Positions 40,737 through 58,523 of a stretch of 64,000 nt of DNA are shown here, piece after piece. The stretch is from Paracoccaceae bacterium. Its GTDB lineage: Bacteria; Pseudomonadota; Alphaproteobacteria; Rhodobacterales; Rhodobacteraceae. The stretch is taken from assembly GCA_007116575.1 (NCBI GenBank), contig SKIF01000039.1, positions 1 to 64,000 of the forward strand. Reading direction: 5' to 3'. The number at the start of each line of letters is the position of its first letter. Positions within the stretch are counted from its first letter, which is position 1. The position numbers and the translations under genes are program-made. The notes below the pieces were generated by a model that saw only the letters and a program-made list of their open reading frames with translations, did no database searches and was not told the DNA's origin.

Positions 40737-41675
40737 TTGCAGGCACTGCTGGTCATCGCTGTTGCTCTGGCGCTGGGCTATGCGACCACGCTGCTGCCAT
40801 GGCGCGACATTCTGACGGCGCTGCGGTCCACCGACCCCTTGTTGCTGGGGCTTGCGGCAGCGCTTCAGTTGGGCGTGATTCCGTTCTGGGTCTGGCAGTG
40901 GGGTCTCATCGCCTCGGCTCTGACCTCAGTCCGGTGGCGCGGAATCATGGCGGCGGTTGCTTTGTCTATTGGTGCCAAGGTCTCTATGTCGGGGCTTGCA
41001 GGCGTGTCCGCAGGTGTGCTGGCGCTGAAATCGCATGGCGGGCTGACATATTCCCAGGCAGGCGCACTCATGTCGCTGGACCAGTTCTTCGCGCTGGCCA
41101 CCAAGCTTCTGGTCCTGCTACTCGCGCTGATGCTCGCGCCGCTGCCCCGCGCGATTCATCTTGTCGCGTTGTCGCTGCTCGTGCTTGGGGTTGTCATGGT
41201 GGTGGCCCTTGTCTTTGCACGGCACACGCAGGGGCATCTGGACGCTTTGGCGTCGCGCTACGCGGGGATGATGTCGCGTCTGATATCACAGGTTGCGATC
41301 TTCCTGCGGGATGCGGCCAGGGTCGGCACGGCTCGTGTCGTTCTTGGCGGGCTGGGACTTGCTGTCGTGAAGCGCGCGTTCGAGATTGCGGCGGCACTTG
41401 CCGTGCTTGTTGCCTGCGGTCTCGCGCCCGATCCGGTCGCGGCCTTGCTCGTGGTGGCGGCTGTGAGTGTGACAACGCTCGTCCCGGTCATGCCCGCAAA
41501 TCTCGGAACACACCCTGCCGGCGTTTTCGCGGCACTGGTGCTTGTCGGGGCACCCGCCGACCTCGCGCTCGCGGCCGGGTTGCTGCATCATGCGGTCGTG
41601 TTGGCAACCTCGATCGCCGTAGCTCTACTCGGGATCGTGGCAACCGGTGCGCGAAGCCGCGCGCCATCGCGATAG
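40737..41675 (+). CDS. Lysylphosphatidylglycerol synthase TM-region family protein (UPF0104-like flippase fold)
   Basis: Polytopic; KVSMSGLAGVSAGVLALKSHGGLTYSQAGALMSLDQFFALATKLLVLLLA; VMPANLGTHPAGVFAALVLVG. TTG start. Confidence 0.75.
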   Translation: MQALLVIAVALALGYATTLLPWRDILTALRSTDPLLLGLAAALQLGVIPFWVWQWGLIASALTSVRWRGIMAAVALSIGAKVSMSGLAGVSAGVLALKSHGGLTYSQAGALMSLDQFFALATKLLVLLLALMLAPLPRAIHLVALSLLVLGVVMVVALVFARHTQGHLDALASRYAGMMSRLISQVAIFLRDAARVGTARVVLGGLGLAVVKRAFEIAAALAVLVACGLAPDPVAALLVVAAVSVTTLVPVMPANLGTHPAGVFAALVLVGAPADLALAAGLLHHAVVLATSIAVALLGIVATGARSRAPSR

Positions 41676-41683
41676 GCAGGCCA

Positions 41684-42430
41684 ATGGACTCTCTCGCTTC
41701 CCGCGCAGTGACAGGTTTGCAGGTGACGGACATGTCCAAGCGTTTCGACGGGCGGGAGGCATTGAGCCGGGTGTCTTTCACCCTTGCCCGGGGCGAGATC
41801 GCGGCACTGATAGGGCCCAACGGATCAGGCAAGACGACGCTCTACAACATACTCACCGCGCTGGAGCAGCCCGACTCGGGTGTGATCGTGCTTGACGGAC
41901 AGGATATCACCCGGCTGCCTGGCTTCGGGCGGGGGCGGCTGGGACTGGGCTACCTGCCTCAGGCACCCTCGGTGTTTCGTGGCCTGAATGTGCGTGACAA
42001 TCTCGCACTGGTGCTCGAGCCCAGACTGCCTGGCCGGAGGCAGCGCGCCGCGCGACTGCGGACACTTCTGGAGCAGTTCGAGTTGACCGAGCTGTCCGAG
42101 GCCATGCCGTCGGCCCTTTCAGGGGGGCAGGTCCGGCGGTGCGAGATCGCCCGCGCGCTCGCCTCGGAGCCGCGCTATCTGTTGCTCGACGAGCCTTTCG
42201 TCGGGCTTGATCCGATAAGGATCGCGGATCTTTCTCGGATGCTTGTCAGGCTCGCGCGCAGTGGTATCGGCATTCTGTTGACCGACCATAATATCCGGGC
42301 GGCGCTTGCGATTGCGGATCGAGTCATCGTGCTTTCAAACGGGACGATCCTCGGTCATGGATCCCCCGAAAGCGTGCTTGCCGATGCCGGGTTACGCAGC
42401 GCGTTCCTCGCTCCGGATTTTGCTCTGTGA
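41684..42430 (+). CDS. ABC transporter ATP-binding protein, LptB/LivF-like
   Basis: LIGPNGSGKTTLYNILTALEQPDSG; LSGGQVRRCEIARALASEPRYLLLDEPFVGLDPI; followed by two LptF/G-like permeases. Confidence 0.9.
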   Translation: MDSLASRAVTGLQVTDMSKRFDGREALSRVSFTLARGEIAALIGPNGSGKTTLYNILTALEQPDSGVIVLDGQDITRLPGFGRGRLGLGYLPQAPSVFRGLNVRDNLALVLEPRLPGRRQRAARLRTLLEQFELTELSEAMPSALSGGQVRRCEIARALASEPRYLLLDEPFVGLDPIRIADLSRMLVRLARSGIGILLTDHNIRAALAIADRVIVLSNGTILGHGSPESVLADAGLRSAFLAPDFAL

Positions 42431-43578
42431 ACGGGGTAACGCAGATGCGGCACTGGCATTTCCCCCGGATCTACCTGCACAGTGTGCTTCGCCAGATTGG
42501 GGCGCTTCTGTTGCTGGTCGTCATCGGAATCGAAGCGCTGTTCATCTCGGACAAGATCCTGACCAACCTTTTGTTCGTCGCTCTGGAAAACGGACTTGGG
42601 CCAGGGTTTCTGGCAAGAAGTTCGCTGCTGGCGTTACCCGAGATCCTGTTTCTCGGGCTGCCGCTGGGTGTTGCGATTGCCGTCTATGTTGTGCTGCTTC
42701 AGCGGCGCGAGGCCGGTGATTTCGTGATCCTTGCACAGGTGGGGCTATCGCCGGTGCAGATTGTGACGTTATGTGTGGCTCTTGGCGCAATCAGCTTTCT
42801 GCTTGCGATGGCAAGCAGCGGTTTCATCCGCCCCCATGCCGAGCACCAGTTGCACAAGAGCTTGCACGAGGCGCGGTATGTCGCTTTTGCCACGGGTCAG
42901 ACCGGTGCCCGGAACGTCATTCAGCTCAACGAAACGACCTTTGTCTTTCACCAGACACCGGGCAAGGACACCGATGTGCGGGTGTTCATCCACCGCCCTG
43001 CTGCCGATGGAGAGGAACAGGTTGTCACTGCGCGCGATTCCCGGGTTCTGTTCCGCACGGAACAGACCGATGGCATCGTGACTCTGTCCGATGCCGAGAT
43101 TCATGATTTCTTGGTTGGCGACCAAATCGAAATGCAGCGCAAAATCCTGTCCGGAGCGGTCAACTTCAGCGCTGAGACATTAATCATTCCCGCCTTTCGC
43201 GACCGATTGTCACATCTTCCGTCCATGACCCTTACCGAGTTATTGGGCCCCCAAGGCCGCGACAGCCCTGCCGCGCGGGAAGCCGTGCTACGTATCTTGA
43301 TGGCCGCCGTGGTCGCATTTCTTGCGCCCGCCCTTGCCGCCCTCGCAATGGCTCTGACCCGTGGTGCCTTTGTCCTGCTGGCCGGGCCAGGCGCTGTCGC
43401 CGCGATTTTCGCGGCCGGTTTCTCGGTCGAACCGCTTGCCCGTCTGTTGTCCCGAATGGACATCGTTCAAGCTGTTGCGGTTGGGCTTGCAGGCGGTCTG
43501 CTGATCTGCTTTGCAGTGGTGGTCTTGACTTTGCGTGCGGGCAATTCCCTAATGATACCGGCACAGTTGCGGGTCTGA
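42427..43578 (+). CDS. LptF/LptG (YjgP/YjgQ) family permease
   Basis: RIYLHSVLRQIGALLLLVVIGIEALFISDKI...; YVVLLQRREAGDFVILAQVGLSPVQIV; ATGA overlap with the ATPase. Confidence 0.82.
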   Translation: MNGVTQMRHWHFPRIYLHSVLRQIGALLLLVVIGIEALFISDKILTNLLFVALENGLGPGFLARSSLLALPEILFLGLPLGVAIAVYVVLLQRREAGDFVILAQVGLSPVQIVTLCVALGAISFLLAMASSGFIRPHAEHQLHKSLHEARYVAFATGQTGARNVIQLNETTFVFHQTPGKDTDVRVFIHRPAADGEEQVVTARDSRVLFRTEQTDGIVTLSDAEIHDFLVGDQIEMQRKILSGAVNFSAETLIIPAFRDRLSHLPSMTLTELLGPQGRDSPAAREAVLRILMAAVVAFLAPALAALAMALTRGAFVLLAGPGAVAAIFAAGFSVEPLARLLSRMDIVQAVAVGLAGGLLICFAVVVLTLRAGNSLMIPAQLRV

Positions 43579-43656
43579 ACAGGGGAGCCGGCTCTGGCGA
43601 TACTCGGTCTCGAAACCCGCTATGTCGGGCGGCTGTATCTGATACGCAGCCTGATC

Positions 43657-44712
43657 ATGGTGTTTGTGCTGTCTGCAGGCGTTCTGGCCATCGACATCGC
43701 AGTGAATTTCGACACGGTGACGGCGGCGGCGGGGCCGGATGTCCTGGGCCAAACAGGGGGCCGGATCGCCTTTTATCTGATGCTGCGCTTCACCTACAAC
43801 CTGCCTGCGATCATCCCGCTTGCAGGCGGGATCGGCATTATCTGGTCCGAATGGACGCTGGCGCGTGGGTATGAACGCGCCATGATCACCAGTACCGGTC
43901 GTGCGACTCTGGTTTCCCTGTTTCCGGCGTTGCTTTTGGGACTGGTGCTCGGGGCGGTTCAGGTTGCTTCGCTGGCGTTCCTGCGCCCGCTCTCGGTCGA
44001 GGCGCAGTCGGTGCACAAGTTTCGGACATGGTATGGACCAAGACTGAGCGGGCTGGAGGCGCAGCAACACTGGATCGCGCTTGACGGGGCTATTGTCCGG
44101 GCGCAGGTCGATTTCGGCAGTGACCCTCCTGCCATGAGCGAGATTACGGTTTTCCGACTGGGGCGGGACAATCGGTTGAAAGAGGTATTCACTGCAGAGC
44201 GCGCGGCATTTGATGGCGCTGTTTTGCGTCTGGAAGCGCCCGAGATATGGCGTTCCGAACCCGCAAACGGTGCGCATCAAGACACGGCAATCGCGCTGCA
44301 CCCGATCTGGCTGCGCAATTTCGAGCTGGAACCACGTTTCTGGACGCAGTCTGACCTTGCACAGGTGGCGTCGGCCAACTTGGGTGTGCCGCAACAGCAT
44401 TTGTACCGGTCGATCCTGCAAAGCCGGTTTGCCGGGCTGGTGCGGCTGGTCGCGATCTGTGTGTTCATCGCGGCGCTGTGTTTCGCGCTGATCCGGCCAC
44501 GTCCGAATATCAGCGTAGGTCTGTGGCTGGGTGGGGCCCTTTACACCCTTCATTTCCTGACCCAGACCCTGACCACATTGGGAAAATATGGCCATCTTGC
44601 CCCGATCCCGGCGTTCTGGATGCTGCCCGGCATTCTGGTCTGTGGTGTCTTCATCTGGCACGCGCGGGCCTTGATCCTGGTCAACCGGATCGTCGCGTCA
44701 AAACCTGATTGA
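43657..44712 (+). CDS. LptF/LptG (YjgP/YjgQ) family permease (start may be upstream at non-ATG 43594)
   Basis: LPAIIPLAGGIGIIWSEWTLARGYERAMITSTGRATLVSLFPALLLG; in-frame upstream peptide AILGLETRYVGRLYLIRSLI suggests a longer N-terminus. Confidence 0.8.
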   Translation: MVFVLSAGVLAIDIAVNFDTVTAAAGPDVLGQTGGRIAFYLMLRFTYNLPAIIPLAGGIGIIWSEWTLARGYERAMITSTGRATLVSLFPALLLGLVLGAVQVASLAFLRPLSVEAQSVHKFRTWYGPRLSGLEAQQHWIALDGAIVRAQVDFGSDPPAMSEITVFRLGRDNRLKEVFTAERAAFDGAVLRLEAPEIWRSEPANGAHQDTAIALHPIWLRNFELEPRFWTQSDLAQVASANLGVPQQHLYRSILQSRFAGLVRLVAICVFIAALCFALIRPRPNISVGLWLGGALYTLHFLTQTLTTLGKYGHLAPIPAFWMLPGILVCGVFIWHARALILVNRIVASKPD

Positions 44713-44771: not shown

Positions 44772-45683
44772 TTAGTGTGCGCGGTCTCTATAGCGGGGCC
44801 AGAGGGTCCACAGGACCACATGGAAAACCGCAATCAGCAGGATCGACACCATTCCGTCGATCAGCCAGTGATGATCAAGATAGACCGAGGCCAGCACCAT
44901 CCAGCCCGACAGGGCCAGCAGCACAGCGCGCCCCGGTAGGGCGGTGCTGCTCCAGGCGGCGAAAAGCGCGGCGACCGGAAAGGCCACATGCAGCGAGGGT
45001 AGCGCCCCAAAGGCCGTTGGCGCGCGGCTGTAGAACTCGGCAAAATAGGTAATCCCGAAGCGTTCATCCAGGCGCGCCAGCCCGGCAGCCGATGGCAGCG
45101 CCTCGGGGTTGATCATGCATCCATGGTCGCGCACATACCAGGGCGGGGCAGACGGCAGGGCCAGCCATAGGACCATGGCCGCCAAGTGTATCAGCGCCAG
45201 CAGCCATAGAAAGCGCCGCATCGTCGGCAGATCGCGAAAATAGAGCAGGACGGCATAGATGACGACAACCGCCCAGAACAGTGTATAGGGCAGGGCAAAG
45301 AACAGATCCGCCGCCGGGCTGTGATGTGGACTGAGCAGATCGGGCGGAGCCAGACCTGTTCCAAAGCTGAAAAGGGTTGCGTCCAGCCGTTGCAATTCGC
45401 ATCCCCAAATCCGCCCCTCGACCACGAAGTAGGGGCGCAGCCAGGGCACAACCTCATGTGCGGCGAGCGCTGCAATCCCCGGTGCACAGGCCAGGAGCAG
45501 ATCTCGGCTGCGATTGGAATGGAGTGCAAGAAAGGTCAGGATCAGAACGATCGGGTAGTGCTCGGCTCGCACCTTGCCGATGACGATCATGGCCAGAAGG
45601 AACCATAGCGGGGCGAGGGCGACGGGCCACCAATGGCCCCAATAGCCCCTGAAATCGCGCCATAGGTTGTTCGGGGCATTCAC
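44772..45683 (-). CDS. PAP2-superfamily membrane protein, Aur1-like (candidate inositolphosphotransferase)
   Basis: LPSAPPWYVRDHG; GALPSLHVAFPVAALFAAW; VYLDHHWLIDGMVS, i.e. PAP2/Aur1-type C2 and C3 motifs. Confidence 0.8.
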   Translation of the reverse strand: MNAPNNLWRDFRGYWGHWWPVALAPLWFLLAMIVIGKVRAEHYPIVLILTFLALHSNRSRDLLLACAPGIAALAAHEVVPWLRPYFVVEGRIWGCELQRLDATLFSFGTGLAPPDLLSPHHSPAADLFFALPYTLFWAVVVIYAVLLYFRDLPTMRRFLWLLALIHLAAMVLWLALPSAPPWYVRDHGCMINPEALPSAAGLARLDERFGITYFAEFYSRAPTAFGALPSLHVAFPVAALFAAWSSTALPGRAVLLALSGWMVLASVYLDHHWLIDGMVSILLIAVFHVVLWTLWPRYRDRAH

Positions 45684-45707: not shown

Positions 45708-46790
45708 TCAGAGTGTGGTTCCGGCCAGATAGGCTTCAAGCGCGGCACGCGCGACGGCATCCTCACGCGGCACGGGGGGCGATTTCATGTAGTACCCGCA
45801 AGCCGGATCAATCGGCCCCGCATCGCCGCGGTCGAGTGCGAGACGCGCGCAGCGGATGGCATCGAGAACCACACCGGCAGAATTGGGCGAGTCCCAGACC
45901 TCGAGCTTCACTTCGATTGCCAGCGGGGCACCGCCGATGCCTGTCCCTTCCAACCGGATATGTGCCCATTTGCGATCTTGCAGCCAGGGCACATGGTCGC
46001 TGGGGCCGACATGGACATCGTCGGCGGGTAGTTGTGTTTCCAGCAGGCTTGTCACGGCTCGGGTCTTGGATTGCTTCTTGGTATTCAGACGCTTGCGCTC
46101 GAGCATGTTCTGAAAGTCGGCATTGCCGCCGAAATTGAGCTGATAGGTATGGGTCAATGATATGCCGCGCTCGCGCATGAGCTGTACCAGCGTCCGGTGC
46201 AGGATGGTCGCGCCAAGCTGGCTCTTGATATCATCGCCGATTATGGGCAGGCCTGCCTCGCTGAACCGCGCTGCCCAACCCGCGTCCGAGGCTGCAAAGA
46301 CGGGGATGCAATTCACTACGGCACAGCCAGCGGACAGGGCTGCTTCCAGATAGTGCGCCGTCGCCTGCCCGGACCCGACCGGCAAGAGGTTCACAAGAAT
46401 CTGCGCTCCAGTCTGTCGCAGGACCTGCTCAACATCCACGGGCGGCAGATCCGATTCGGGCACCACATCCTTCAGGTACTCGCCGATCCCGTCCAGTGTC
46501 GGGCCGCGCTCGACAATCACCCCGGTCGGGGATGGTTGGGCGAAGCGGTAGGTATTGTTCGGTGCGCAGAAGATTGCCTCAGCCAAATCGGTGCCAACTT
46601 TCTGAGCATGCACATCGAATGCGGCGACCACTTCGATATCGCCAACCCCATAGCCACAAATATCGGCATAGATCAGACCGGTTGGCAGCGGCCCTGTTAT
46701 CTCGCCCCCATAAAATGCCAAAGACTGAACCAGAGAACTGGCACAGTTTCCCACGCCAACAACAGCGATCCTGACCGGATTTGACGGCAT
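45708..46790 (-). CDS. ino1: Myo-inositol-1(3)-phosphate synthase
   Basis: VRIAVVGVGNCASSLVQSL; LPIIGDDIKSQLGATILHRTLVQLM; TYQLNFGGNADFQNMLERKRLNTKKQSKTRAV; KLEVWDSPNSAGVVLDAIR. Confidence 0.94.
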   Translation of the reverse strand: MPSNPVRIAVVGVGNCASSLVQSLAFYGGEITGPLPTGLIYADICGYGVGDIEVVAAFDVHAQKVGTDLAEAIFCAPNNTYRFAQPSPTGVIVERGPTLDGIGEYLKDVVPESDLPPVDVEQVLRQTGAQILVNLLPVGSGQATAHYLEAALSAGCAVVNCIPVFAASDAGWAARFSEAGLPIIGDDIKSQLGATILHRTLVQLMRERGISLTHTYQLNFGGNADFQNMLERKRLNTKKQSKTRAVTSLLETQLPADDVHVGPSDHVPWLQDRKWAHIRLEGTGIGGAPLAIEVKLEVWDSPNSAGVVLDAIRCARLALDRGDAGPIDPACGYYMKSPPVPREDAVARAALEAYLAGTTL

Positions 46791-47349: not shown

Positions 47350-48549
47350 TTGGCCCTGAAAACACAACTCCGTCTAGCTGACCACTCGCCGGATGACGCC
47401 GCCAAGCCTCATGCCCGGGAGATTGCGATCGTCCCGGTCTTGGGGCGGCGCATGCTGCGGCAGTTTATTGACTTGCCCGCCATGTTGTATCGCGACATTG
47501 CGACGTATGAGCCGCCGCTTCACATTGACCGCGCGATGCTGCTGGATCCGCGACGAAATGCGTTTTGTCGGCGCGGAACTGTCCAGTACTGGCTGGCTTA
47601 TCGTGGCGCTCGGGCAGTCGGGCGCATTTCGGCCCAGATTGCGGATGACCGACCCGTTGGCGTGCCCGATGGTAGCGGCATGTTCGGCTGTCTTGATGCT
47701 ATTGATGACCGCGAGGTGGTGGCGGCGCTCGTGGATGCGGCCGAGGACTGGTTGCGTGCGAAAGGATGTACCAATGCTTACGGGCCCAATATGCTCGACA
47801 TGTATGGCGAGCCTGGCTTGCTGGTGCGTGGATACGAGCGCCCTCCCCTGACACTCATTCCGTGGCATCCGCCCTATCTTCGGGCGCATGTAGAAGCTCT
47901 CGGATACTCCAAATGGCAGGATGTCAGCTACTGGGGGCTGGATCTGGGGCAGTTCGACGGCGCGCGGGTGCGCACCGACATGCGCCTCGGAGAGCGATAT
48001 CCGAGGCTGAGCGTTCGGTCTGTGACATGGCGCAGCCTCCGCAAGGATCTGCCCGTCTTGCGAGATCTTTTCAACGATGGCTGGGAGAATAACTGGGGGC
48101 ATGTGCCCCTGACACTCGAAGATATGCGCGGTGTTGCTGCGCTCGCACCTCTTATACCGCCCGAGGCGGGCCGGATCATCGACCTGGATGGAGAGCCGGT
48201 TGCGATGCAAATCGCGATTCCAAACACTTACGAACTGACACATGGGCTTGGCCCGTATCCTTCGCCGTTGGGCTGGCTCCGGCTGATCTGGCGTGCGCTC
48301 CGCTTTCGCCCGAAAAGCGGTCTTGTCGTGCTTCTCGGCATATCGTCGCGCCTGCGCTTCAGTGCGGCCTCCGCGGCGGTGATCCTCACCTTGATTGATG
48401 AATTGATCGCCAGCCAGGAAGCCCTCGGCCTAGACTGGATTGAAGGCGGTTGGGTCCTGGAAGACAATACCGCATTGACAAAGCTATTGGCCCGTTTCAA
48501 CTTCAGGATCACACGCACATATCGTGTTTATTGCAAGGCTTTGGCCTGA
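47350..48549 (+). CDS. GNAT-fold protein resembling bacterial ceramide-synthase-like acyltransferases
   Basis: RQFIDLPAMLYRDIATYEPPLHIDRAMLLDPRRNAFCRRGTVQYWLAYRGARAVGRISAQIAD; C-terminal GNAT-like EGGWVLEDNTALTKLLARFNFRITRTYRVYCK. Confidence 0.6.
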   Translation: MALKTQLRLADHSPDDAAKPHAREIAIVPVLGRRMLRQFIDLPAMLYRDIATYEPPLHIDRAMLLDPRRNAFCRRGTVQYWLAYRGARAVGRISAQIADDRPVGVPDGSGMFGCLDAIDDREVVAALVDAAEDWLRAKGCTNAYGPNMLDMYGEPGLLVRGYERPPLTLIPWHPPYLRAHVEALGYSKWQDVSYWGLDLGQFDGARVRTDMRLGERYPRLSVRSVTWRSLRKDLPVLRDLFNDGWENNWGHVPLTLEDMRGVAALAPLIPPEAGRIIDLDGEPVAMQIAIPNTYELTHGLGPYPSPLGWLRLIWRALRFRPKSGLVVLLGISSRLRFSAASAAVILTLIDELIASQEALGLDWIEGGWVLEDNTALTKLLARFNFRITRTYRVYCKALA

Positions 48550-48568: not shown

Positions 48569-48925
48569 ATGACAGACCCTTCCGTTTCCGATACCACCAA
48601 CCCGCCAGTTCAAGACGCGCGTGCCCCGGCCAGGACAACCTGGCCGGATCTGCCAGAGGATGGCCTGCTGGAGCAGCTGGTGCAAATCATCGCCGAGGAA
48701 GGCAAGGTCGCCCCAGAACTTGTTGTCCCCGAAGCAACGCTTGAGAGCCTCGATCTCGCCTCGATCGATGTTGTTTCGATCCTCATGGGCGTGGAGGAGA
48801 AGCTTAACGTCTACTTACCCATGAGCGACGATCTGACATCCGCGCGCAATCTCGCCGAGCTTGTCGAGGCGATCGTGACACAGATGCGTCCGGACGAGTT
48901 GCAGAGTATCGGCCCCAAACCTTGA
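48569..48925 (+). CDS. Acyl carrier protein
   Basis: VVPEATLESLDLASIDVVSILMGVEEKLNVYLPMSDDLTSARNLAELVEAI. Confidence 0.85.
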   Translation: MTDPSVSDTTNPPVQDARAPARTTWPDLPEDGLLEQLVQIIAEEGKVAPELVVPEATLESLDLASIDVVSILMGVEEKLNVYLPMSDDLTSARNLAELVEAIVTQMRPDELQSIGPKP

Positions 48926-50142
48926 GCTCTCGAGTCGCGATAACGGGCATGGGTGCCGTCAGCGCCCCGGGCATTGGCGTGGAAGCGCTCTGGTCTGCCA
49001 CCCGTGACGGCATTTCCGGAGTACGCCCGCTCAGCTTGCCGCGCGGCGAGGGTTTGCGTGTACGAATCGCGGCGCAGATTCCCGACTTCGATGCCGACCA
49101 GTTGCTTGGCGGGAAAGTGCCACGAACCACCGAGCGCTACTCGCAGTTTGCGCTTGTCGCCGCTGCCGAGGCGGTCGCGCAGGCAGGAATTGCGCCTGAT
49201 ATTCTGGCGGGCAGGCGCAGTGCGTCCGTAATTGGAACCGGGATCGGTGGCGCTGGCTCGATCGACGAGAGTTGTTATATCTTTTACAAGGGCCACGAAG
49301 CCGGGTTGCGGAATGAACCGATGTCGGTGCCCCGGATCATGCCGAGTTCTGCCGTATCGCATGTCTCTATTGCCTATGGCGTTACTGGCCCGAGTTTCGG
49401 GTTGGTCAGTGCCTGTGCATCCGGGGCGCAATCCATCGGCTGCGCTGCGCAGATGATCCGCGCCGGTCTGGTGGACCGCGCTTTGGCGGGGGGTACAGAG
49501 GCCTGCATCACACCGGCGACCATGCGGGCATGGGAACTCTTGCGCGTGCTGTCGCCGCGCGGATGCCAGCCATTCTCGGCGGGACGCAGCGGCATGGTGA
49601 TCGGCGAGGGGGCCGCTGTCTTTGTGCTGGAATCTGAAGCTGCCCTGCGCGCGCGTGGTGGCGAGGCACTGGCCTGGCTTGATGGCTACGGCACCAGTAG
49701 TGACGCGAAAGACATGATCCAGCCTGATGTGGCTGGTGCGGTTGCCGCGATGGCAGAGGCGCTCGAAGATGCAGGCGTCGCGCCCGAGCGGGTAGGCTAT
49801 GTCAACGCCCATGGTACGGGTACGGTCCTGAACGACATCAACGAGGCTCACGCCCTGCGCGAGGTGTTCGGCGTTGCGCTGGACGGCATCCCGGTTTCAT
49901 CCTCCAAGCCTGTACTCGGACATGCGCTCGGGGCGGCAGGCGCACTTGAGCTGGTCGTTGCTGTGCAGTCCTTGCGGCATCAGATCGTGCCGCCGCAAGC
50001 GAATTTTGAGCAGCCTGATCCCAGATGCAACCTGCACATACCCACAGGCGCAGCCCGTCCGGCGCGACTGGAGGCCGTGATGTCGAATTCCTTCGCTTTC
50101 GGGGGCATCAACGCGTCGCTGCTGGTACAGCGCGCCGTATGA
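48922..50142 (+). CDS. Beta-ketoacyl-[ACP] synthase (FabF/KAS II-like)
   Basis: VAITGMGAVSAPGIGVEALW; Cys in LVSACASGAQS; His in NAHGTGTVLND and KPVLGHALGAAGALE. TTG start overlapping ACP stop. Confidence 0.92.
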   Translation: MSSRVAITGMGAVSAPGIGVEALWSATRDGISGVRPLSLPRGEGLRVRIAAQIPDFDADQLLGGKVPRTTERYSQFALVAAAEAVAQAGIAPDILAGRRSASVIGTGIGGAGSIDESCYIFYKGHEAGLRNEPMSVPRIMPSSAVSHVSIAYGVTGPSFGLVSACASGAQSIGCAAQMIRAGLVDRALAGGTEACITPATMRAWELLRVLSPRGCQPFSAGRSGMVIGEGAAVFVLESEAALRARGGEALAWLDGYGTSSDAKDMIQPDVAGAVAAMAEALEDAGVAPERVGYVNAHGTGTVLNDINEAHALREVFGVALDGIPVSSSKPVLGHALGAAGALELVVAVQSLRHQIVPPQANFEQPDPRCNLHIPTGAARPARLEAVMSNSFAFGGINASLLVQRAV

Positions 50143-50582
50143 ATGCGCGCACCGAAACATCCGCCTCGCGCCCGATCGGGGCGTTTCCGGTGACTGTCGA
50201 TGCCGCGCGCGTCCGCGACTATGCCAAGGTAGCCGGGGCGAGCACCAACAGCGTTGCGCCTGTCCCTTTCGCGTTTCCGATCTGCTGGCTCTCGCCCCCG
50301 GAGATCCGCGTCGCAATCATAGCCGCCGTGCAGGAGGACTCAGGAATTGCGGGCGGCGTTCTGCCGGTGCATCTGGACCAGACCATTGCATTGTCAGAGA
50401 ATTTACGCGTTGGCGAAGACTATCTGCTTTCGCTCGCTGTCGATGGGCCGGACCCGCGCAGGATTGTGCAGATCACGGGCCAGATTACCGCGCCCGATGG
50501 ACGCGCGGTCGGATCTCTCGAGTTGCGGTTGGCACTTGTCACCTGTGAGGGTGCTCAGGCAGCCAGCAGACCTCGCTCATGA
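50139..50582 (+). CDS. MaoC/hotdog-like N-terminal dehydratase subunit
   Basis: FPVTVDAARVRDYAKVAGASTNSVAPVPFAFPICWLSPPEIRVAII; paired with the following MaoC gene, ATGA overlaps. Confidence 0.65.
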   Translation: MNARTETSASRPIGAFPVTVDAARVRDYAKVAGASTNSVAPVPFAFPICWLSPPEIRVAIIAAVQEDSGIAGGVLPVHLDQTIALSENLRVGEDYLLSLAVDGPDPRRIVQITGQITAPDGRAVGSLELRLALVTCEGAQAASRPRS

Positions 50583-50959
50583 TCGGCACGCGGTTGCCCG
50601 GTTCCGATCTGCCGCTTGCGGATCACGACGTGATCGCGGCCTATCTGGCGGCTTCGGGCGACGACAACCCGCTGCATCGCGATCGGCATGTCGCAAGGTC
50701 TGCGGGTTTCGAGGATATCCTTGTGCCCGGAATGTTGCTCATGGCGCAGATGGCCGAGTGTCTCGCGGCCTGGCCGCATTGCCGGTCAATCAAGCGGCTT
50801 CAGTGCCGGTTCGTCGAGCCGGTACGGGCAGGCACGCCGCTGCGCTGTGACGGGCGCATTGTCGCGACTGATCCGACAGGGCTGACTTTGGTCCGGCTGA
50901 CCGCCGGTCAGGACCGGCGCATTCTGGTGCTGGGAGAAGCGGCGATCACGCTTGCCTGA
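50579..50959 (+). CDS. MaoC-like (R)-hydratase/dehydratase
   Basis: ASGDDNPLHRDRHVARSAGFEDILVPGMLLMAQMAECL hydratase-2 motif. Confidence 0.85.
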   Translation: MIGTRLPGSDLPLADHDVIAAYLAASGDDNPLHRDRHVARSAGFEDILVPGMLLMAQMAECLAAWPHCRSIKRLQCRFVEPVRAGTPLRCDGRIVATDPTGLTLVRLTAGQDRRILVLGEAAITLA

Positions 50960-50983: not shown

Positions 50984-51655
50984 TCATTCGTCGTGTCGCG
51001 CAGTGCGTGCAGCTGCCCGCAGGGCCACCACGCCTGCGACGCCACCAGCAAGCGCGATGGCGAGCAATGCCAGCACAAGCGGCGTCGCAGGCCATGGGTG
51101 TTGCGCCCACTCGAAAGGTGCAAGGACAAGCCCGGCAATCATCAGGCCGAAGCGGTCTTCGCGGCGCATCCATAGGCGCGGCAGTCCAAGCTGAAGCGAT
51201 TGTGCCCGCGCGCGGATATAGGGGATCCACAATCCGGACAGAAGTGCCGCGCCAGGCAGAAGGACGAGCGCACCGAAGGGGGCGTAGAAGACCATAAGAC
51301 CAAGCGGAATGCAGCCATCTGCCACCCGATCAAGCGAGGAATCCAGCAAGGCTCCGAAGCGGCTGGAGGTTCCGCCTGTCCGCGCAAGTGCACCGTCGAG
51401 AAGGTCGGCAAATCCGCTGAGTAGGAAGAAAGCGGCTGCTGCCCAGAACCAGCCTTGCGCCGCGCAGTACCCGGCAGCCAGTGCAGGCGGGATTGATGCC
51501 AAGGAAACAGTGTTGGCGCGCAGCCCCGTCGCAACAAGCCGCGCCGCCAGCACATTGAATAGCGGCTCATGGAGTCGCAAGGCCAACCTTCCCTCGTTGC
51601 TTGTGGATACTGTCGAGCATTCGTTCGCCGCGCGCAAGACGCCTTGATCTGGCAA
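50984..51655 (-). CDS. CDP-alcohol phosphatidyltransferase (candidate phosphatidylinositol-phosphate synthase)
   Basis: Complete CDP-OH-P motif DLLDGALARTGGTSSRFGALLDSSLDRVAD. Confidence 0.87.
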   Translation of the reverse strand: MPDQGVLRAANECSTVSTSNEGRLALRLHEPLFNVLAARLVATGLRANTVSLASIPPALAAGYCAAQGWFWAAAAFFLLSGFADLLDGALARTGGTSSRFGALLDSSLDRVADGCIPLGLMVFYAPFGALVLLPGAALLSGLWIPYIRARAQSLQLGLPRLWMRREDRFGLMIAGLVLAPFEWAQHPWPATPLVLALLAIALAGGVAGVVALRAAARTARHDE

Positions 51656-51710: not shown

Positions 51711-52304
51711 TCAGGGTCGCGTGATCAAGGTTGCAATTGCCCCGCTCTCCAGCCGACCGAAGGCCCTGACTTCGATTACGCGGGGGATCAACCCGTCAAT
51801 TGCTTCGACAAACGCATATTTCAATCGGATTTCTTCGCCGTCCAGATGTCCGACAAGTTCGGCGCGAAACGGCTCGGTCTGTCGCAACGTCGCCTGCGCG
51901 CGTGCCGTCGCTCTGGACCGCACTGTGAACTCGCCTGGCTGAGCGCCCGGCCTCACCCGCACCCCGAAAGCGAAATTGCGTTGCTCGAAATTCAGCGCCT
52001 GGATCTGCCCATTTTCCTCGAAGCGACGCCAGTAAACTGCCAGTGGGTTGTGCGGGTCAAGGTTGCCATCTGCATCAAATCTCGCGGCATAAACGATCGT
52101 GTTACGATTGGTCGACCGTTGTAGGTAGAATACCTGGCCCGGATCATTGGGCGCTGGCGTGTCGGGGCGCATTACCGGAAGGGTCTGGGAGAAGCTGATT
52201 GACAGGGCCCAGCCTTCGGAGGCCTGCACCGCCGAGCCAGTAATCATAGCCAGCAACAGCACTACCAACAAACGCAATCGTGCGGTCTCCCTTATGTCTG
52301 GCAC
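51711..52304 (-). CDS. Secreted DUF4833-like protein
   Basis: Signal peptide; VFYLQRSTNRNTIVYAARFDADGNLDPHNPLAVYWRRFEENGQIQALN. Confidence 0.6.
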   Translation of the reverse strand: MPDIRETARLRLLVVLLLAMITGSAVQASEGWALSISFSQTLPVMRPDTPAPNDPGQVFYLQRSTNRNTIVYAARFDADGNLDPHNPLAVYWRRFEENGQIQALNFEQRNFAFGVRVRPGAQPGEFTVRSRATARAQATLRQTEPFRAELVGHLDGEEIRLKYAFVEAIDGLIPRVIEVRAFGRLESGAIATLITRP

Positions 52305-53269: not shown

Positions 53270-53544
53270 ACTTGATCATCGTGCACGCTTACCGGGCTGC
53301 AGTAGCGAGCACATGCCTGTTGCGCAAGCAGGCACTTAAGGCTGCGACGCAAGATTTCGCGAATCGGAGTCAGAGGAAAGATGCGGGTTGAAAGTGTGTT
53401 TTCCGGCGGGTTCGGGGTGAGATTCGTCGCTTCCACCTGTCCAGGCGAACACCGACCGCGCTTTACAGCCTTTTCGGATGCGCCTATCACATTTGCATCT
53501 GTGTTGGCCTTGCTTCATGGGTGACAAAGGTTGAAAGCGAAACC

Positions 53545-54390
53545 ATGAGAGCGTTGCTGGACAACCCCGAAGTCCGATCCGAGCGGAGTATCTGGGCCGC
53601 ACCCGCCCGCGTACTGATCGAGCGGCGCACGCTCTTGCGCGCGCTGATCCGCCGCGATCTGGAAACTGCGCTGAAGGGCACCATGCTGGGCTGGCTTTGG
53701 GTGTTGCTGGTGCCCTTGATCCTGCTGGCTGTCTACAGCTTTGCATTTGGCGTCGTATTTGCGGCGCAATGGCGTGACCGCGACCCGCAGCCATTCCTGT
53801 TTCCGATGCTCTATTTCACCGGCCTGCTGCTGTTCGGGTTGTTTGTCAACTCTCTGAACAGGGCACCCAATCTCATCCGCGACAACGCGACCTATATCCG
53901 TCAGATCGTGTTCCCGGTGCAGGTCTTCGTGCCGGTAGTGATCGGGGCGGAACTGGTGAAATTCTTGGTCGGGCTGGTGGTTCTCGTCCTTGCCTACCTG
54001 CTGATCATTGGTATCCCTCCCCTCGCGGCGATCAGCTATCCAATGAGTGTGGTCGGTTTGCTGATGTTCACGGCAGGCATTTGCTGGGCGATTGCCGCAC
54101 TCGGGGTCTTCCTTCGCGATCTGGGGCAAGCGATGCAGCCGGTTTCGATGATTATGCTCTTTCTCAGCCCGCTCTTTTACCCGCTCTCGACTGTGCCTGA
54201 TCGTATCCAATTGGTGTTCTACTTCAACCCTCTGACCTTTCCCCTGGAAGCGACGCGTAACGCGCTGTTTTTCGGTGAATGGCCCAGCTTCGCGGGCGCA
54301 TTCATCTACCTGCTTGCGGGCTGGGTCTGTGCCGTGGCCGGGTTCGCGTTGTTCAATCGCTTGCGACCGGGTTTCGCCGATGTCCTCTGA
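53545..54390 (+). CDS. ABC-2 type polysaccharide export permease (Wzm/KpsM-like)
   Basis: LLRALIRRDLETALKGTMLGWLWVLLVPLILLAVYSFAFGVVF; LFLSPLFYPLSTVPDRIQLVFYFNPLTFPLEATRNALFFGEWP. Confidence 0.9.
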   Translation: MRALLDNPEVRSERSIWAAPARVLIERRTLLRALIRRDLETALKGTMLGWLWVLLVPLILLAVYSFAFGVVFAAQWRDRDPQPFLFPMLYFTGLLLFGLFVNSLNRAPNLIRDNATYIRQIVFPVQVFVPVVIGAELVKFLVGLVVLVLAYLLIIGIPPLAAISYPMSVVGLLMFTAGICWAIAALGVFLRDLGQAMQPVSMIMLFLSPLFYPLSTVPDRIQLVFYFNPLTFPLEATRNALFFGEWPSFAGAFIYLLAGWVCAVAGFALFNRLRPGFADVL

Positions 54391-55669
54391 ACCGGTCATA
54401 TCGGTCCGGAACCTGACGAAATCCTTCGCCAGCGCCTCGCACGGAGTTGATGCCTTGTCGCAAGCGCTCTGGCCCCGTCCAGCGGCGAAGCCGGAAGTGG
54501 TGCTGAAGGGTGTCTCTTTCGATATCCAACGCGGCGAGGCGCTTGGAATTATCGGGCGCAACGGATCGGGCAAGTCTACCTTGCTGAAACTTATCTGCGG
54601 AGTGATGCGGCCAAGTTCCGGGTCGGTGAGCTGCTCGGGCCGGTTGGCGACCTTGCTGGAGCTGGGTGCGGCCTTTCACCCCGATTTTACTGGTCGCGAG
54701 AACGCACGCTATGTTGCCAGCATTCTGGGCTTGAAGGAGGAAGAATTCGACTCAATCGTCGGATCTATTGCGGAATTTGCCGATATCGGTCCGTTCTTCG
54801 ACCGCAAGGTGCAGGAATATTCCAGCGGCATGTATGCGCGTCTAGCCTTCGCGGTGAACATACATTGCGCGCCTGATATCCTTGTCATTGATGAGGCACT
54901 TTCGGTTGGGGACATCCTGTTTCAGGTGAAGTGTTTCAGCAGGTTGCACCGGTTCCGCGCTGAAGGCGGGACACTGGTGATTGTTTCGCATGATGACACG
55001 GCGGTGCGCGCGCTGTGTGACCGAGTGTTGTGGCTGGATCGGGGCAGGCTGGTGGCGCTGGGCGCGACTGACCATGTCTGTGGTCTCTATCAGGCGAGTA
55101 CGGCTGTCGCGCAGGCAAGCTCGGGGTCAGAGGAAGCACCGAAGGCTCCTTTGGATGAAGCGAACCTGGTGCAGGGCCGAAGCGAGGTGATTGACAACGG
55201 GCGCTTTGATCCCGATTCGCTGGCCGAACCGCTTCACGAAGGCAGTGTTTCCGGCCTTCGCTGCTGGCAGGATTCGGACAATCCGGGTCTGCTCGAGGGC
55301 GGTGGTGAGACACATGTGGTGTTTCGCTACGCCGGCCCCGCGTTGCCGGGCTTGAAGGCCTGTTTCCTGCTGCGCGACCGCCTTGCCCAGATCGTGTTCG
55401 GGGCCTGCGCTCCGCTCCGCCGCAACAGCGAAGGTGCTCATCTCGACGCGCGTTTTTGCTTCGATCTGCCCTGGCTTGTCTCGGGTGAGTATGTCGTCGA
55501 GGCGCTTGTGGTGGTCGAGACGGAGGAAGGTGCGCACAGACTTGTCGACCACGCGGCCCCAGTCCCGCTGGAGGTCAAGACCACACATATCTCGCATGGC
55601 CTTGCAAATCTGAGGATGCGGACGATCAGCATTCAACCGGTACCTGTCCGGTTCAGCGAGGTCGGATGA
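54380..55669 (+). CDS. ABC polysaccharide export ATPase (Wzt-like, first of two) with C-terminal extension
   Basis: GRNGSGKSTLLKLICGVMRPSSG; VQEYSSGMYARLAFAVNIHCAPDILVIDEALSVGD; about 180-aa C-terminal domain. Confidence 0.92.
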   Translation: MSSEPVISVRNLTKSFASASHGVDALSQALWPRPAAKPEVVLKGVSFDIQRGEALGIIGRNGSGKSTLLKLICGVMRPSSGSVSCSGRLATLLELGAAFHPDFTGRENARYVASILGLKEEEFDSIVGSIAEFADIGPFFDRKVQEYSSGMYARLAFAVNIHCAPDILVIDEALSVGDILFQVKCFSRLHRFRAEGGTLVIVSHDDTAVRALCDRVLWLDRGRLVALGATDHVCGLYQASTAVAQASSGSEEAPKAPLDEANLVQGRSEVIDNGRFDPDSLAEPLHEGSVSGLRCWQDSDNPGLLEGGGETHVVFRYAGPALPGLKACFLLRDRLAQIVFGACAPLRRNSEGAHLDARFCFDLPWLVSGEYVVEALVVVETEEGAHRLVDHAAPVPLEVKTTHISHGLANLRMRTISIQPVPVRFSEVG

Positions 55670-56958
55670 GCACGCAAGGCAATGTCATCCAGGTGTGCGG
55701 ACTGGGCAAACGCTATGCCCGTCACGCTACACCGCTTGACCGCATGCAAGCCCTATTGCAGGGGCGAGAGGACGAGCAGGGGTTCGAGGCGCTCGTGCCG
55801 CTGGATTTCTCGATCCGGCGCGGTGAGTGCTTCGGTATCATCGGGCGAAACGGGTCGGGTAAATCGACGCTGCTCAAACTCTTCTGTGGTATCATTTCAC
55901 CCAGTGCGGGCCGTGTCACACTGAGCGGGCGGGCGCTGGGTCTGATCGAGTTAGGCGCGGGGTTCCAACCCGACTTCACCGGTCGTGAGAATGCACATAT
56001 CAACGCGCTGGTTCAGGGCCTGGACGAGGATGAGGCTGCACAGCGCATGCCCCTGATCGAGGAATTTGCCGATATTGGCCCGTATTTTGACCGTCCCGTA
56101 CGGACCTATTCGAGCGGCATGTATGCCCGGCTCGGCTTCGCCATCTCGGCACATGTCGATGCCGATATACTGATCGTGGACGAGATTCTCGCGGTTGGCG
56201 ATACCTCGTTCCAGCAAAAATGTGCAAAATGGATGCGTCAGTTTCGCGAGCGGGGCGGGACAGTCGTGTTGGTGTCGCATGCTGTCCGAGATATTGCCGC
56301 GCTTTGCGACCGTGCGCTCTGGCTGGATCGGGGCGAAATGCGTAGCCTTGGCCCTGCCGATGAGGTCGCGGCTGCCTATCAGCGCGCGATGATGGCCGAA
56401 CAGGATACTGGTGACAGTGCGGCGCAGGCTGCGCCGCCTGCCGAAGGGCCGGTATCCGAATGGCAGGGACAAATGAAGTTGCATCAGGGCTGGTACGATA
56501 CGGCTGCGAAGGGCCATGGTCACGGTGGTGCTGTCGTGATTGATGCTGGGTTTTTCACCGCAGAGGGCGCGCGCGCCGAGACTCTGGAAGGCGGTGCCGA
56601 TATGATCTTGAAAATCCGGGCCCGCGCGACGCGCGATCTTCACGCACCGATCCTGGGTTTCATTTTTCGCGATTCCAACGGGCGCAATCTGTTCGGGGAC
56701 AATACCTACATGACAACCCGTGAAAAACCTGTACGTTTCGCCGCGGGGCAGGTATTCGAGGCCGAGTTCCATGGCACTCTACCATTTCTGCCCGTCGGCA
56801 ATTACACGCTGGCCCCTTCGGTCATCGAGGGGACGCAGGAGGACCATGTGCAACTGCATTGGGTCGAAAATGCCGTGACACTACAAGTCAGCGAAAGCCC
56901 GGTAGAGTTCGGGCTTGTCGGGGTTCCAATGAAAGCAATCGGCCGAGGTATGCAATGA
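55666..56958 (+). CDS. ABC polysaccharide export ATPase (Wzt-like, second) with Wzt-C-like domain
   Basis: GRNGSGKSTLLKLFCGIISPSAG; VRTYSSGMYARLGFAISAHVDADILIVDEILAVGD; HAPILGFIFRDSNGRNLFGDNTY Wzt C-terminal signature. Confidence 0.93.
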   Translation: MSTQGNVIQVCGLGKRYARHATPLDRMQALLQGREDEQGFEALVPLDFSIRRGECFGIIGRNGSGKSTLLKLFCGIISPSAGRVTLSGRALGLIELGAGFQPDFTGRENAHINALVQGLDEDEAAQRMPLIEEFADIGPYFDRPVRTYSSGMYARLGFAISAHVDADILIVDEILAVGDTSFQQKCAKWMRQFRERGGTVVLVSHAVRDIAALCDRALWLDRGEMRSLGPADEVAAAYQRAMMAEQDTGDSAAQAAPPAEGPVSEWQGQMKLHQGWYDTAAKGHGHGGAVVIDAGFFTAEGARAETLEGGADMILKIRARATRDLHAPILGFIFRDSNGRNLFGDNTYMTTREKPVRFAAGQVFEAEFHGTLPFLPVGNYTLAPSVIEGTQEDHVQLHWVENAVTLQVSESPVEFGLVGVPMKAIGRGMQ

Positions 56959-58523
56959 AGCAGGCGGACTTTCCCGCTCTTGCACAAGGACAGGTGCCGC
57001 AGCATGTCGGCACGGCGCAAGGCAGCACGGAACCCAAGCTTTTTTTCGACATTTCCAGCTTCCTGAATTATGTCCTCGTTTTTCGCAACTACTCGGGCAT
57101 CCAGCGGGTTGTGGCGATGGTGCTTTCTGAAATGGCGACGCGCGTCGATGCGGACAGGCTTTATGTCAGCTATGTTTCGCACAGGGATGGAAAGCACTAT
57201 TGCGTGCGTCTGGATGCGATCGGGGCAGAGACTTTTCTTGTACCGACCGAGTTGCGCAGAGTCTTCTTCTCCACATCAATCAATCTCCGAACTCTTCTGG
57301 ACGTAAGGCATATCTTCAGGGTGATCCGGGACGAGCTGCGATGGCTGCTGCGGGCCCGACCAATCCAGCAGCTTCCGCTATTTGCCTTGCGCAAGCTGGG
57401 CAAGGGAATGGCCAGCTTGTTTCGGCGCAACCGGCCCGCGACTCAAGCAAAGCCCGGCAAGGCCCGGATAACGCGGCGCAAATTAAGCGAAGTCGTTGCG
57501 CCCGGTGACAGGCTGATCCTGCTCGATTCCACCTGGAGCCCGATATTCACCGATGCGTTTGTCCGCGCCCATCGCGATGGGATGCGCGTCTACTCGCTTG
57601 TTCATGACCTGATCCCGCTGGTCCATCCGGCCACGACAGGAGGCGACATACCGAGGGTCTTCTATAACTGGCTGAAAAACGCACTGGACTATACGGATGT
57701 GTTTCTTGCGAACTCAAGGTCGACGCATCGCGATCTGGATGCTTTTCAGCGTCTCTACCCGTTGCGAAAGCCGATATGCGACCTGCCGCTTGCGCAGACC
57801 CGCCTGAAAATGCGCGATGATGTAGAGAATCGGCGCGCGGACGCCCCTCTTGGCGACATCCCGTCCGAATACGTGCTCGCGCGTGACATCATCCCGAGGG
57901 ACACGCATGTGCGGTCTGCGGTCAACACGCCTTTCGTGTTGTGTGTGGGTACAAACGAGCCCCGGAAGAATATCTGGCGCCTGCTGATGGCCTGGAAAAT
58001 GCTTGTCGATCAGGGTTTGGCCGATATTCCGCGACTGGTGCTCGCCGGCCGGACCGGCTGGCAATGCGATGACTTGAAAAACATGTTGCACGGCACGGGC
58101 CATGTCTATGGATATGTCACGCTCATCGAAGAACCCAGCGACGCAGATCTGGAGTTCCTGTACCGGCACTGCGTGTTCACCGCGATGCCCTCGCCCTATG
58201 AAGGCTGGGGTTTGCCGGTCGGTGAGACGTTGTCCTATGGCAAGACCGCTGTCGTATCAAACACTTCCTCATTGCCGGAGGTTGGGCAGGATATGGTCGA
58301 GTATTGCGATCCGAATTCGATCGAGAGCATTGCTGCGGCGGTTCGCCGCCTGGTGGAAGACCCTGACCGGCGCCTCGCGCTTGAAGCCCGCATTGCGACG
58401 ACCCCACTCCGGTCATGGGGCGATGTGACATCAGATCTGCTGCAGATCCTCAATGCTCCGTTGCACGACATGCGTGACGACCCCCACCGGCCCAGTCTGC
58501 GCGACGCTGTTGCCGAGACGTAA
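56955..58523 (+). CDS. Glycosyltransferase family 4 protein
   Basis: VLCVGTNEPRKNIWRLLMAW; ADLEFLYRHCVFTAMPSPYEGWGLPVGETLSYGKTAVVSNTSSLPEVG. Confidence 0.92.
   Translation: MKQADFPALAQGQVPQHVGTAQGSTEPKLFFDISSFLNYVLVFRNYSGIQRVVAMVLSEMATRVDADRLYVSYVSHRDGKHYCVRLDAIGAETFLVPTELRRVFFSTSINLRTLLDVRHIFRVIRDELRWLLRARPIQQLPLFALRKLGKGMASLFRRNRPATQAKPGKARITRRKLSEVVAPGDRLILLDSTWSPIFTDAFVRAHRDGMRVYSLVHDLIPLVHPATTGGDIPRVFYNWLKNALDYTDVFLANSRSTHRDLDAFQRLYPLRKPICDLPLAQTRLKMRDDVENRRADAPLGDIPSEYVLARDIIPRDTHVRSAVNTPFVLCVGTNEPRKNIWRLLMAWKMLVDQGLADIPRLVLAGRTGWQCDDLKNMLHGTGHVYGYVTLIEEPSDADLEFLYRHCVFTAMPSPYEGWGLPVGETLSYGKTAVVSNTSSLPEVGQDMVEYCDPNSIESIAAAVRRLVEDPDRRLALEARIATTPLRSWGDVTSDLLQILNAPLHDMRDDPHRPSLRDAVAET

Follow-up and report, generated by a model that had tools for sequence, protein, structure and literature searches.

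The locus and its genes

The DNA analysed here (the window) comprises positions 1-64000 of contig C61 of the alphaproteobacterial genome G000, a MAG estimated to be 87% complete. The gene under study spans positions 47350-48549 of the plus strand, starts with TTG and encodes a protein of 399 amino acids, which homology, tree position and predicted fold all mark as a likely tandem-GNAT acyltransferase of the bacterial ceramide synthase (bCerS) family. The peptide quoted in the earlier note is contained in this ORF. The ORF is kept, at 77% and 62% identity, in two of the 36 congeners searched, and is matched at 60% in another MAG (L099). Over 398 codons, comparison with the homologue at locus L098 revealed 70, 41 and 150 differences at codon positions 1, 2 and 3, respectively. 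Because it is conserved, and differences fall mainly at the third position, the ORF is a real gene and not a chance frame. A viral-contig scan yielded no match.

The resemblance to GNAT proteins proposed from the sequence would have been missed by Pfam alone, as Acetyltransf_1 scored below threshold (E=0.094), and the ORF had no match among NCBIfam models or PDB sequences. The AlphaFold2 model, built from a 39-row alignment (pLDDT 84.9, pTM 0.84), matched tandem GNAT enzymes in Foldseek searches (best E 4e-14). Judging from this predicted structure, the product is a tandem-GNAT protein.

Four genes follow on the same strand. The GNAT ORF stops at 48549, and the ATG of an acyl carrier protein gene (ACP, 48569-48925; 118 amino acids, PP-binding) is found 19 bp on, preceded by AGGAGG. 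In this ACP the serine motif ASI replaces DSL. A FabF-like ketoacyl synthase (KAS, 48922-50142) with intact Cys/His/Lys/His motifs, a hotdog-like protein lacking Pfam matches (HD1, 50139-50582), which may be a HadA-like partner, and a MaoC/HadB-type dehydratase featuring an intact ASGDDNPLHRD hydratase motif (HD2, 50579-50959) come next, each start codon lying within the stop of the preceding gene. Short gap, AGGAGG and overlapping starts and stops bear out the earlier view that the GNAT gene heads an ACP-KAS-hotdog operon equipped with a private ACP.

The operon is flanked on both sides by genes plausibly involved in head-group formation and export. Downstream, on the minus strand, are found a CDP-alcohol phosphatidyltransferase (50984-51655), closest to archaetidylinositol/phosphatidylinositol phosphate synthases and carrying an intact DX2DGX2AR...GX3DX3D motif, and a DUF4833 protein (51711-52304), the hydrophobic N-terminus of which looks by eye like a signal peptide. 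Upstream, again on the minus strand, lie genes for a myo-inositol-3-phosphate synthase (MIPS/Ino1, 45708-46790) identified by profile match, and a PAP2_3 membrane protein (44772-45683), with intact PSLH and HHWLID motifs, which weakly matches NF052609, the phosphoinositol dihydroceramide synthase model (94.8 of 480 bits). The MIPS, PIPS-type and PAP2 proteins all match the expected NCBIfam models below the curated cut-offs. Farther upstream, on the plus strand, profile matches identify LptG-like (43657-44712) and LptF-like (42427-43578) permeases, adjoined by an LptB-like ABC ATPase (41684-42430; the start was set at the in-frame ATG ahead of the conserved part) and an LPG_synthase_TM (AglD2-type) membrane protein (40737-41675), possibly a flippase-like partner. 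Past the cluster, at positions 53521-58523, follow genes of capsule or O-antigen type, which encode a Wzm/Wzt-like ABC exporter and a glycosyltransferase.

Homologues and tree position of the GNAT protein

Full-length homologues share 29-44% identity with the GNAT protein over about 94% of its length, and are mostly found within sphingolipid clusters. A tblastn search of plasmid records returned 43 matches. Homologues at 29-37% identity reside in SPT-type clusters of Klebsiella, E. coli (YghO), Sphingomonas, Roseomonas, Acidisoma and Streptomyces, as well as of alphaproteobacterial genomes. The Klebsiella gene is accompanied by an SPT-like aminotransferase, ACP, an epimerase and an acyl-AMP ligase, and yghO by the same set plus LptF/LptG. 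The Sphingomonas gene has SPT-like, ACP, LptF and LptG neighbours, the Roseomonas gene LptF/LptG and a nucleotidyltransferase, the Acidisoma gene an aminotransferase and an SDR. In E. coli PN43 (L039, 1-7122) LptF, LptG, SPT-like, ACP, epimerase, acyl-AMP ligase and yghO genes adjoin the glc genes; a similar sphingolipid-type cluster has been noted for BL21 (PMC9386255).

In a class-wide search, 50 of 385 genomes featured a match to the GNAT protein at E<=1e-30. Further genes of the Caulobacter-type region were recognised in 17 of the 20 neighbourhoods read, SPT itself in 9; the remaining three, which share their family with the Acetobacteraceae record KSS8, hosted an SDR only.

In a GNAT tree of 52 rows, which did not include C. 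crescentus CC_1154, the window protein falls in a subclade of seven (support 100/97), together with L098, L099, two Novosphingobium proteins, one from Hyphomicrobiales and one from another alphaproteobacterium. Members of the subclade mostly lead an ACP-KAS(-hotdog-hotdog) operon. Acetobacteraceae proteins and two G918 proteins join them in a clade of 23 rows (100/99), set apart from the canonical-type rows. Three ThiF-linked GNATs (100/100) are found far outside, on a branch of length 2.55; the window protein was thus not placed among generic, distant GNATs, the outcome that would have spoken against the proposed kinship, and tree and fold together rule out a generic GNAT. As to whether it falls inside the functional bCerS clade, the answer is divided: it groups with bCerS, but in a divergent subclade outside the rows having YghO or CC_1154 synteny.

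Given that full-length homologues, YghO included, mostly reside in sphingolipid clusters, the assignment to bCerS made in the earlier note is right, and cluster context, tree and fold agree on it. On these sequence comparisons, the product is a divergent member of the bCerS family. A second GNAT is found among the canonical rows in G912 and G913 (Novosphingobium MAGs) and G914 (a Hyphomicrobiales MAG). The window GNAT lineage is consequently seen as a paralogue lineage, and the subclade may have another substrate, since these three MAGs carry a canonical-type copy besides.

Association of the elongation genes with the GNAT

Relatives of the window KAS are found within 1.5 kb at 8 of 105 GNAT loci, which were gathered by similarity and are no random sample; 5 of these 8 fall in the subclade of seven. 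The window and the congener locus L266 represent two more KAS-linked GNAT loci. GNAT-linked KASs, that of the window included, form a clade of their own (98/96), separate from housekeeping FabF. A second KAS-like ORF of the window genome, 43% identical to the window KAS and accompanied by an ACP-like ORF, was detected at a contig end (C114, 115-1593; L258); it is the genome's one outlying relative. The ACP-KAS-hotdog genes directly follow the GNAT gene, and not SPT, at L098, L100, L101, L122, L155, L157, L172 and L266. The SPT of the L155 and L157 genomes comes with an ACP and a CerR of its own. A literature search for a link between bCerS and KAS retrieved nothing relevant. A change in the CoA loop was considered as an explanation of ACP use and discarded, as the alignment shows no clear loss and few clade-specific substitutions.

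Genes encoding DUF4833 proteins recur near this GNAT lineage (window, 51711-52304; L098, 4204-4977; L102, 5970-6557; L172, 8959-9954; L266, 16994-17683), and at L266 DUF4833 is the sole companion of the module. The protein might act in the periplasm as a partner in lipid handling.

First-step enzymes in the window genome and its relatives

Neither SPT nor CerR nor acyl-ACP synthetase (AasR) genes were found in the 64-kb window. Sequence searches of the whole 87%-complete assembly gave similar results. The alpha-oxoamine synthases (AOSs) present are only Kbl and two HemA, which account for the three SPT candidates located elsewhere in the genome; searches for CerR-like proteins retrieved generic SDRs and epimerases, and no acyl-ACP synthetase cluster was found. 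A PKS of the sgaAB type was sought in the same assembly, but matches were of the FabF/FabB type only, and the search for an adjoining SPT-like AOS turned up just Kbl and HemA. With 13% of the genome missing, SPT may only seem absent.

SPT-type AOSs were found in all 11 sibling genomes checked, and are either canonical or belong to a second clade including Acidisoma, L099, G918, G910 and G919. The L099 cluster has PAP2, ACP, KAS, HD1, HD2, LptG, LptF, ABC, MIPS, CDP-alcohol phosphatidyltransferase and glycosyltransferase genes in common with the window, and additionally encodes an SPT-like enzyme and an SDR reductase. The genome of L098 encodes an hrPKS-AOS-SDR set beside relatives of LptG/LptF/ABC (55/38-66/65% identity). 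In G910, genes for an SPT-like AOS and for an SDR come after that of a full hrPKS (KS-AT-DH-ER-KR-ACP), and LptG/LptF/ABC relatives adjoin (C3, 296-9898; L208). A similar PKS-AOS pair was observed in Gluconacetobacter diazotrophicus (L213, 1900-10355).

The earlier note had placed the GNAT gene outside a classical sphingolipid cluster. This holds in that SPT, CerR and AasR are absent from the window, but not for the surroundings as a whole, since the neighbours are inositol-lipid genes and genes resembling those for sphingolipid export, and the L099 cluster features an SPT-like gene and a reductase. That reading was right on family and operon, and incomplete on context, as neither the inositol-lipid genes nor the LptF/LptG/ABC exporter were mentioned.

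A plausible pathway and its alternatives

Taken together, the genes are best read as an inositol-phosphosphingolipid pathway in which a dedicated type II elongation module supplies acyl chains. ACP, FabF-like KAS and the two hotdog proteins, complemented by housekeeping FabG/FabI, would build or extend an acyl chain, and the divergent bCerS would add it, as second acyl chain, to a 3-oxo-sphingoid or sphingoid base, supplied by an SPT-type enzyme presumably encoded in the missing part of the MAG. Inositol phosphate would come from MIPS and PI phosphate from the PIPS-like enzyme, and phosphoinositol would be moved onto ceramide by the PAP2/Aur1-like protein. LptF/LptG/ABC could then take the finished lipid toward the outer membrane. 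The core of this reading, that the GNAT protein is the N-acyltransferase of a sphingolipid-type pathway, is held as probable, with some reserve. Because the module encoded behind it would build the acyl chain, the GNAT most likely uses acyl-ACP. By their sequence similarities, the MIPS, PAP2/IPC-synthase-like and PIPS-like genes and the LptF/LptG/ABC exporter point to a phosphosphingolipid rather than to a sugar ester. MIPS was found in 6 of the 12 genomes searched, and is absent from G910, the nearest genome with the GNAT operon; the head group hence seems to vary among operon carriers. This absence, and the below-cut-off matches of the PAP2, MIPS and PIPS-type proteins, suggest that there is no fixed link between the GNAT operon itself and an inositol head group.

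Bacterial ceramide synthases have been described as using acyl-CoA as donor. The GNAT might be an ordinary acyl-CoA-dependent bCerS, the ACP-KAS-hotdog genes feeding the SPT-type enzyme or another step, a possibility which concerns the donor only and has somewhat less than an even chance. In Caulobacter a specialised AcpR serves SPT (PMC9386255), and in the sibling G910 an iterative PKS is coupled to the AOS, as in the sgaAB system (PMC12134224). The chain made by the module is nonetheless assigned to the GNAT, because the module sits right behind the GNAT gene, and not behind SPT, at the eight loci listed above, and the first-step enzymes appear already served, the AOS of G910 by its own PKS, SPT of L155/L157 by its own ACP, besides CerR.

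Doubts may also be raised about the substrate. The module could serve an SPT-independent acyltransferase that N-acylates a different amine, as an amino acid or an amino-alcohol lipid precursor, to give a non-sphingoid amide lipid which may receive a phosphoinositol head group. The failure to find SPT, CerR or an acyl-ACP synthetase cluster in the window genome, the separate canonical-type GNAT of the two Novosphingobium and the Hyphomicrobiales MAGs, and the L266 module with DUF4833 alone beside it all fit this idea. We regard it as unlikely, as SPT-type AOSs occur in every sibling genome checked, the L099 cluster contains an SPT-like gene and an SDR, and the window genome is just 87% complete. 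Somewhat less likely still is its boldest form, a self-contained SPT-independent amide-lipid synthase derived from a bCerS lineage gone from sphingolipids, acylating another amine and giving rise to a new class of inositol-phosphate amide lipids. O-acylation of a sugar, for which the earlier note had left room, or of inositol is very improbable: MIPS and PAP2 genes do adjoin, and the GNAT family holds paralogues of unknown function, but the family contexts that can be read indicate amide formation in sphingolipid clusters, and G910 keeps the GNAT operon without MIPS.

Comparison with known systems

The N-acyltransferase denominated aca corresponds to yghO (ECD_02850) of E. coli, GOX2417 of G. 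oxydans and CC_1154 of C. crescentus (PMC9386255). The window GNAT resembles these proteins in family, length, nearby LptF/LptG-like permeases and presence of SPT in genomes or relatives. In contrast, identity ranges from 29 to 44%, the window protein falls in a separate supported subclade, and its gene leads an ACP-KAS-hotdog-hotdog operon at a locus lacking SPT, CerR and AasR. An ACP, a condensing enzyme and a dehydratase carried along by a bCerS lineage would account for the specification of the amide chain in a bacterial sphingolipid, and the private ACP offers a simple test of acyl-ACP use.

In Caulobacter, CC_1154 lies beside LptF2/LptG2 in a phosphosphingolipid region (PMC11324152). The CC_1152-CC_1168 region is similar to the window in joining bCerS to LptF2/LptG2, a flippase candidate, and CDP-alcohol and head-group genes. 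By analogy, the LptF/LptG/ABC genes (41684-44712) may fit the proposal that LptF2/LptG2 transport phosphosphingolipids. The Caulobacter region differs for the ceramide phosphoglycerate head group and the presence of AasR, AcpR, SPT and CerR, whereas the window has inositol-type genes and the KAS module. As to the SgaAB PKS sphingolipid system, judged from its published description (PMC12134224), the counterpart is the hrPKS-AOS-SDR set of G910, located beside related exporter genes; searches of the window genome turned up neither a PKS nor an AOS of this kind.

Inositol-lipid genes (BT_1522, BT_1523 and BT_1526) have been described in Bacteroides (PMC9246714). The likeness includes MIPS, the CDP-alcohol PIPS-type enzyme with its DX2DGX2AR...GX3DX3D motif, and a PAP2-type protein matching the PI-dihydroceramide synthase model. 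Unlike the Bacteroides genes, those of the window are alphaproteobacterial, encode proteins all scoring below NCBIfam cut-offs, and are joined to an LptFG exporter and bCerS; no counterpart of the PgpA-like BT_1525 (PIP phosphatase) was seen within the window cluster. The cluster suggests that inositol phosphosphingolipids, with an Lpt-like exporter, may occur in alphaproteobacteria, the known inositol-lipid genes available for comparison being those of Bacteroides. A second hint at inositol sphingolipids in the class comes from another alphaproteobacterium (L092; G551, C25, 3971-10709), in which no more than 6 kb separates a MIPS gene (47% identity to that of the window) from genes for AasR, CerR and a GNAT of the canonical type.
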